From IMG/VR virus record IMGVR_UViG_3300015371_000181, positions 1 to 23,682 of that record: a stretch of 23,682 bases of DNA; one strand, 5' to 3'. The notes below the pieces were generated by a model, which made no database searches, was not told where the DNA came from, and was given only the letters and a program-made list of their open reading frames with translations. This DNA comes from a virus. This document shows, one piece after another, positions 17,065 through 19,950 of the stretch. A program made the position numbers and the translations under genes. How positions within the stretch are numbered: the stretch's first letter is position 1; the number at the start of each line of letters is the position of its first letter.

Positions 17065-17511
17065 CTACGCCACAAACGGCCTAACCAAGCCGTTTTCGTT
17101 TTCGTTTTTGCTTGCGTCCGCAGGTTTTTCTCGCGGGAAGCTGGTTGGGGGTTTGGGAGGGTGGGCGTCTCGCGATCCTCGATCCACCCCCCCCATCAGC
17201 TGCTGCGCGCGGTGCAGTCTTCCGTGGCAGGAGGGGCAGAGCGGCACGTAGTCAGCAGGGTCCGTGGTGTGGTAGCCATTGCCTACCTTGTGCACCCCTG
17301 TCCCGTACCCACCGCACTGGGTGCATGTGTGGTTGTCTCGGGCGAGGACTGCTGCTCTGGTCTTGATCCATGCGGTGCGGTGGCGACCGTCCTTGATGGT
17401 GCGGGATCGGCGTTTCGCGTTGTCGATTCGTGCGTGCGTCTGGCAGTGCTTGGCTTGGGGTTTGATGAGGCGTGTGCAGCCTGGCGCTGAGCAGACGCGG
17501 AGCATGGTCAT
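17065..17511 (-). CDS. HNH endonuclease next to terminase
   Basis: A 148-residue protein with ATG 2 bases after the previous stop. An N-terminal Cys/His cluster (CSAPGCTRLI, then KHCQTH; Cys7, Cys12, Cys23, His26) precedes the HNH fold: HTCTQCGG (Cys63, Cys66), GVHKV (His74), and YVPLCPSCHGRLH (Cys92, Cys95, His96). This is the phage type found beside the large terminase, shown in several cos phages to stimulate terminase cutting. The C-terminus is Pro/Lys-rich and ends in an Asn-Glu-Asn-Glu run encoded by an unusually AT-rich stretch (about 17089-17112). An alternative start at Met3 (17505) is possible. Confidence 0.9.
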   Translation of the reverse strand: MTMLRVCSAPGCTRLIKPQAKHCQTHARIDNAKRRSRTIKDGRHRTAWIKTRAAVLARDNHTCTQCGGYGTGVHKVGNGYHTTDPADYVPLCPSCHGRLHRAQQLMGGVDRGSRDAHPPKPPTSFPREKPADASKNENENGLVRPFVA

Positions 17512-19222: not shown

Positions 19223-19393
19223 TTATGCGTTAGGCGGCTCCGGGAGCGTGGGCTGGTCGGGGCGGGTCCTCGAGCCGCGGCAGATGTGGCCGGCTCGTGG
19301 GTGGGGCCAGCGGTAGTGGTGTTTCGCGAGGCGGCCGTCTGCTCGTGTGGTGGGCCACTGTCCGCAGTGGGGGCATTGGACGCGGCGACCCAC
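19223..19393 (-). CDS. Small zinc-ribbon-like protein
   Basis: A 56-residue protein; GTG shares one base with the previous stop (TAGTG) and GGAG lies upstream. It contains CPHCGQWP (Cys7, Cys10) and later HHYRWPHPRAGHIC (His and Cys38), a Cys2/His-Cys arrangement like a treble-clef or zinc-finger protein. It is Arg/Pro-rich throughout. Such tiny zinc proteins are common in actinophage early regions but have no fixed function. Translational coupling to the replisome-organiser-like gene suggests a supporting role in DNA metabolism or regulation. Confidence 0.7.
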   Translation of the reverse strand: MGRRVQCPHCGQWPTTRADGRLAKHHYRWPHPRAGHICRGSRTRPDQPTLPEPPNA

Positions 19394-19950
19394 TAGAGAT
19401 CTCCGAGGATGGGCTTGATCCCGATCTTGGCTTGGACTTCGGCGAGGAGTCGCTGCGCTTCTTCCTTGGTGAGAGGCTGCTCGTCGTCGCTGCTGTTTTG
19501 GTGTCCGTTCTGAGCGCTCGCGGCGACGCCTTCGGCGGAGTCGCGCGCGTGCGCGTTCTTCTTCTCTTTCTGGGGTTCTTTAGAACCCTCTACTTCTGGG
19601 CTTGCATAGTGCTTGCGGACTGCTTGCGCTCTGCTTGCACGCACCTCGATGAAACCCGCATCACTGAGCCGTTGGAGTGTTCGGTGAACGTGGCATGCAC
19701 GGATGTTGAGCGCGTGTTGTACGTGGGTTGGGCGAGCACTGACTCGACCTTGACCCGTCCTTGCAGTGAGCATGTGCAGTCCGTGGAGGACTGCTCGGTC
19801 GTGTGGCGAGAGGTCGATGTATTCGGGGTTGTCGAGCAGGTCGACGTAGAGCTTGATCCACGCAGCTCCAGGGCTGGCGCGACGCTTGACGTCGGGGTGT
19901 TGGAACTCCTCCCAACCCTTGACGTGGATGTATCCGCCGGCTTCTTTCAT
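19393..19950 (-). CDS. Winged-helix, replisome-organiser-like protein
   Basis: A 185-residue protein from ATG 19950 in an ATGA overlap. Residues about 27-104 (WIKLYVDLLDNPEYIDLSPH, RAVLHGLHMLTARTGQGRVS, LNIRACHVHRTLQRLSDAGF, IEVR) match the winged-helix N-terminal domain of phage replication organisers and related initiators. A polar Lys/Glu/Ser/Asp linker (about 118-160) leads to a short C-terminal helix (TKEEAQRLLAEVQAKIGI) that could contact a helicase or loader. Codons 105-117, just after the winged helix, contain four GCAAGC repeats at 11-base spacing, in mixed reading frames. That is what an origin inside its initiator gene (lambda O type) would look like. Helicase loader or helicase genes were not seen in the window. 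Confidence 0.7.
   Translation of the reverse strand: MKEAGGYIHVKGWEEFQHPDVKRRASPGAAWIKLYVDLLDNPEYIDLSPHDRAVLHGLHMLTARTGQGRVSARPTHVQHALNIRACHVHRTLQRLSDAGFIEVRASRAQAVRKHYASPEVEGSKEPQKEKKNAHARDSAEGVAASAQNGHQNSSDDEQPLTKEEAQRLLAEVQAKIGIKPILGDL
19561..19638. repeat. Four GCTTGC iterons plus AT-richer dyad: candidate replication origin
   Basis: GCTTGC occurs at 19600-19605, 19611-19616, 19622-19627 and 19633-19638, exactly 11 bp apart (spacers ATAGT, GGACT, GCTCT). The copies fall in different codon phases of the gene, so the repetition is not protein-driven. Next to them, 19561-19600 has 21 of 40 A/T bases in an otherwise GC-rich region, including GGGTTCT-TT-AGAACCC (19573-19588) and a pyrimidine run. 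Iterons beside an AT-richer segment within an initiator-like gene match the lambda ori layout. Confidence 0.6.

Follow-up and report, generated by a model that had tools for sequence, protein, structure and literature searches.

A putative replication origin with 11-bp iteron spacing inside the initiator-like gene of an uncultured phage

What function is served by four identical hexamers set at one exact interval within a viral gene? In the window analyzed here, which takes up the whole of a 23,682-bp viral contig, the sequence GCTTGC occurs at positions 19600, 19611, 19622 and 19633 (span 19600-19638), a step of exactly 11 bp. The segment 19556-19638, which includes these repeats and the DNA beside them, is probably the phage's replication origin (a probability of roughly 0.86), of the intragenic iteron type and lying inside the gene for the initiator that would act on it. 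The coding context and the individual repeats are as follows.

19393-19950, minus strand: replication-initiator-like gene of 185 aa, assigned from PHROG matches, an AlphaFold model and a fold match to PhiPLPE gp04
19636-19860, minus strand: winged-helix domain codons (approximately residues 31-105), from the AlphaFold model; presumed iteron-binding domain
19633-19638, minus strand: iteron 1, coding-strand GCAAGC, kept in the relative L174
19622-19627, minus strand: iteron 2, coding-strand GCAAGC, kept in L174
19611-19616, minus strand: iteron 3, coding-strand GCAAGC, replaced in L174 by an inverted GCTTGC with changed amino acids
19600-19605, minus strand: iteron 4, coding-strand GCAAGC, kept in L174

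On the coding strand, the four GCAAGC sites begin at nucleotides 313, 324, 335 and 346 of the gene, corresponding to codon phases 0, 2, 1 and 0, and they encode residues 105-118, directly after the winged helix. The observed count of in-register GCTTGC triples was reached by none of 100 shuffles of the contig. When the gene was recoded synonymously, with the protein and contig codon usage held fixed, all four sites were kept by only approximately 7e-6 of the recodings; among 20,000 gene recodings, any hexamer occurred four times at 11 bp in none and three times in 16. The original prediction, which described four GCTTGC copies 11 bp apart, lying just past the winged-helix codons in three codon phases and not kept in place by the protein sequence, is therefore borne out on each of these points.

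The same observations bear on whether the repeats merely reflect the protein, in the form of a repetitive linker, or recent slippage, with no function at the DNA level. Linkers in such proteins are often of low complexity, but a protein-level explanation sits poorly with three reading phases and with the rarity of the array under recoding. In addition, the cores are identical while the spacers between them differ, which indicates that the array is not a recent duplication. In L174 (65% identity), all four sites persist at 11 bp, the third as its reverse complement (GCAAGC to GCTTGC), and the amino acids beneath this inverted site have changed from K-H-Y to L-Q-A. Given this evidence, a purely protein-level or slippage origin for the repeats is hardly credible, the least so of the alternatives considered here.

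The encoded protein belongs to phage replication-initiation families, in keeping with its earlier description as a winged-helix, initiator-like product. Over residues 10-145, a segment that covers the DNA-binding region, it matches the profile phrog_26426 (replication protein; E 4.5e-7), with further, weaker matches to several replication-initiation PHROGs. Compared with DnaD-like helicase loaders or replisome organizers, it gives E 0.002 (phrog_186); the match to the O-like phrog_345 is insignificant (E 0.077). AlphaFold predicts, with confidence, the helices and strands of a winged helix up to approximately residue 105 (pLDDT mostly 85-94 per block), beyond which come a disordered linker and a helix at the C-terminus. 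The nearest viral fold is that of Iodobacter phage PhiPLPE gp04, a putative replication protein. The closest PDB folds (Z 6.4-7.0, weak and generic for winged helices) include entries titled as initiators or Rep-DNA complexes, and the fold match to the DnaD N-terminal domain (Z 5.2) is likewise not specific. DNA binding by the winged helix, the presumed iteron-binding domain, is inferred.

Adjoining the array is a second set of elements, among them the anticipated AT-richer 40-bp stretch with a dyad, which turns out to be more extreme than had been claimed.

19556-19595, no strand: candidate DNA unwinding element, of all 40-mers in the contig the lowest in both stability and GC (40%)
19573-19588, no strand: dyad GGGTTCT-TT-AGAACCC (GGGTTCTTTAGAACCC), inside the AT-rich element (fold z -4.1)
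19495-19560, no strand: stretch nearly identical to L174, with 97% identity in one 30-bp block; can form a G+C-rich hairpin (fold z -2.0)

Nowhere else in the 23,682 bp is there a 40-mer of lower GC content or lower thermodynamic stability than 19556-19595. The least stable 40-mer of the 34.8-kb L174 contig lies in the same place, beside that contig's own array, and the least stable 40-mer of L175 (40.0 of 41.1 kb examined) is also the same AT-rich element. The dyad core, GGTTCTAAAGAACC, is common to all three contigs; in L174 the outer base pair of the dyad is altered on both arms through two synonymous changes. The GCWWGC array is absent from L175 (41% identical), though the AT-rich dyad is kept, and so L175 either has iterons of another sequence or has lost the array. 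On the other side of the AT-rich element, 19495-19560 matches L174 nearly throughout, even at synonymous sites; it is a possible further origin element.

A winged-helix protein together with an ordered array of sites would also be expected of autoregulation, and the dyad resembles an operator. Conceivably, then, the protein binds within its own gene and blocks transcription there, and the locus is no origin at all. The array, however, lies in the middle of the gene rather than at a promoter, it recurs in replication initiators, and it adjoins the least stable DNA of the contig, as it does in L174, which an operator does not require. An operator is thus an improbable reading, albeit the strongest of the competing ones.

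Conservation of the iterons and of their spacing, proposed at the outset as a check, was examined in homologues fetched with protein patterns that are blind to DNA repeats (80 sequences); these, the window gene and three phage homologues gave a dereplicated set of 60 genes. Because CAGAGA runs distort lag statistics at even distances, pairs of sites were counted instead. At a distance of exactly 11 bp there were 74 GCWWGC pairs, as compared with 2.3 expected from synonymous shuffles, and 34 of the 60 genes (2.1 expected) had at least one; at 10 bp there were 4 pairs, and at 9, 12 and 13 bp none. The spacing is thus kept, in L174 and across homologues, beyond what the protein demands, which reflects selection at the DNA level and contradicts the view that the repeats are a by-product of the protein. 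This conservation has a limit, as L175 has no array and 26 of the 60 homologues lack an exact 11-bp pair. The core consensus across homologues is YGCWWGCR. Pairs occur after nt 200 in 26 of the 60 genes and before nt 200 in 24, with 16 having both, indicating that the place of the array within the gene is not fixed.

Two other features were seen among the homologues. In many homologues, among them L171 (3103-3126), L176, L178, L191 and L213, further GCTTGC/GCTAGC sites with 11-bp spacing form a second group within the winged-helix codons, at approximately nt 106-150. In many members of the series L174-L253 (for instance L187, 2280-2400), the linker codons that follow the iterons contain a CAGAGACAGAGA run that is strand-asymmetric and possibly part of the unwinding element.

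Across these homologues, 67 of the 11-bp pairs lie in 38.5 kb of initiator genes and 0 in 181.5 kb of flanking DNA. This distribution bears on whether some other protein uses the array for packaging or segregation. Phage pac sites and plasmid centromeres are in some cases repeat arrays, but here the arrays track the initiator gene, and the contigs of relatives end close to the terminase, on its upstream side and approximately 2.5 kb from the array, which probably places the packaging end elsewhere. A packaging or segregation role accordingly appears very unlikely.

Those sequence-level expectations of the origin reading that were open to analysis held up, save for a cumulative GC-skew turn at the array: the minimum of the skew lies at 17091 instead. 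It falls near the ends of the terminase relatives' contigs and so probably marks a genome end, making the turn at approximately 17.1 kb uninformative as to the position of the origin. Many of these contigs start a little upstream of the terminase, frequently carrying NNNNNCCGCGAGAAA there, and L002, whose terminase is 100% identical, starts exactly at window position 17141. A (CGTTTT)3 repeat at 17091-17108 coincides with the skew minimum. On the strength of these sequence features, approximately 17091-17141 on the minus strand is a candidate cos-type genome end.

When viral contigs were scanned, without reference to protein, for GCTTGC in three copies at 11 bp, 93 stretches came up, in which 71 distinct ORFs of at least 100 aa lie over the array. 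At least 49 of the 71 are related to phage initiators, as judged by transitive phmmer searches from annotated phage initiator seeds, either directly or through intermediates; this is a lower bound, since in some cases a spurious antisense frame is longer than any other ORF across the array. Matches to a single DnaD-like family number 34. Spacing of 13 bp gave 15 stretches and no initiator matches among the 5 distinct ORFs tested, a small number, whereas 10-bp arrays lay in initiators for 9 of 19 ORFs, so that the association is not limited to 11 bp. With the permuted hexamer GTCTGC, chosen as a negative control and likewise spaced at 11 bp, initiators again made up the majority (24 of 38 ORFs), and GCTTGC itself is thus not shown to be special. 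These sequence comparisons suggest that spacing and location count for more than the sequence of the core, so that the core would drift while a spacing of nearly one helical turn, inside the initiator gene, persists. A GCAAGC triple at 11 bp was also seen, outside the initiator count, in a primase-like phage gene (L091, L105, L114 and L161).

Among known phages, initiator genes with 11-bp arrays occur in Cellulophaga phi18:3, Vibrio 1.116, Bacillus Palmer, PhiPLPE and the metagenomic phage ctEw122. PhiPLPE gp04 and a hypothetical protein of Vibrio phage phiV208 are homologous to the window's initiator by sequence, and in the case of PhiPLPE also by fold; their genes have GCTAGC/GCTTGC sites at 11 bp, although the C-terminal parts of these proteins are different and longer, and no origin is annotated there. 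The DnaD-like initiators of phi18:3 and Palmer have intragenic 11-bp arrays with GCAAGC or CAAGCA cores, but they belong to a more distant protein family, and their adjacent repeats are near-identical over the whole unit.

Origins embedded in replication genes have precedent. In lambda and Stx phages the origin is known to lie inside gene O (PMC7466680), SPP1 oriL lies inside gene 38 and comprises direct repeats and an AT-rich element (PMC6316719), and the 80alpha origin was placed in ORF20 by inference, given that attempts to complement this ORF in trans failed (PMC5499656). The window locus has in-register repeats within an initiator gene, immediately after the DNA-binding codons, and an adjoining AT-rich element. 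In plan it therefore resembles the lambda origin, with four iterons inside the initiator gene and an AT-rich neighbor (PMC7466680), as the original prediction had it, and, like SPP1 oriL and the inferred 80alpha origin, each placed in a replisome-organizer gene, it would be embedded in the gene of its initiator. The likeness does not extend to detail: lambda iterons are 18 bp long and recur at 20-24 bp, as is proper to the lambda O family, whereas the window has a near-palindromic core of 6-8 bp at 11 bp. Nor does it match the 15/30-bp period of the 80alpha repeats. Across characterized or annotated intragenic origins, together with a related DnaD-like gene, the periods are 20-24 (lambda O), 15/30 (80alpha), 15 (TP901-1), 5/10/15 (Tuc2009) and 12 (A118), of which those of TP901-1, and of 80alpha at 15, are weak, being multiples of 3 that do not exceed synonymous shuffles. 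The best reading of the locus would thus be a lambda-like intragenic origin whose one-turn spacing is a variant of the known plan, distinct from that of lambda, 80alpha, TP901-1, Tuc2009 and A118.

If the segment serves as an origin, the winged-helix protein would bind, in multiple copies, to the GCWWGC cores of the four iterons, all of which lie on one face of the helix by virtue of the 11-bp spacing, and the initiator would wrap or bend the iteron DNA. The resulting nucleoprotein complex may then melt the adjoining AT-rich element at 19556-19595, where a host or phage helicase would be loaded, with recruitment probably mediated by the C-terminal part of the initiator. A replicative (DnaB-type) helicase was looked for and not found in three possibly partial contigs, those of the window, L174 and L175.

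The recurrence of such arrays raises a broader proposal, for and against which the odds seem about even: that there is a widespread class of phage origins, spanning several host phyla, in which a winged-helix initiator acts at an origin within its own gene through 11-bp iterons, and in which the core (GCWWGC, GCAGAC, GATATC or GCAAACGA) drifts along with the cognate protein. Spacing and location would, in that case, amount to a conserved code from which the origins of uncultured phages could be read in sequence. In the open-access papers searched, no description of an 11-bp spacing class was found, which speaks weakly for its novelty. For the window itself, an unannotated gene would gain a function, and the origin of an uncultured phage would be placed from its sequence alone. 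The 11-bp signature marks initiator genes on many unrelated viral contigs, which would permit origin prediction at scale, and the rule that pairs a winged helix with its iteron core could become open to comparative study.

Compared as DNA with isolated phages, the region gave no match, a scan of viral contigs with the 185-aa protein as single query gave no relatives, and contigs bearing the window's terminase have no copy of the initiator, save for one weak match. A scan of genome contigs yielded a single, distant homologue, which lies in a Phycisphaerae MAG (L374, 3000-3800) and is possibly part of a prophage. It too carries arrays, two of them of GCTAGC type, the second of which is followed by CAGAGA runs.
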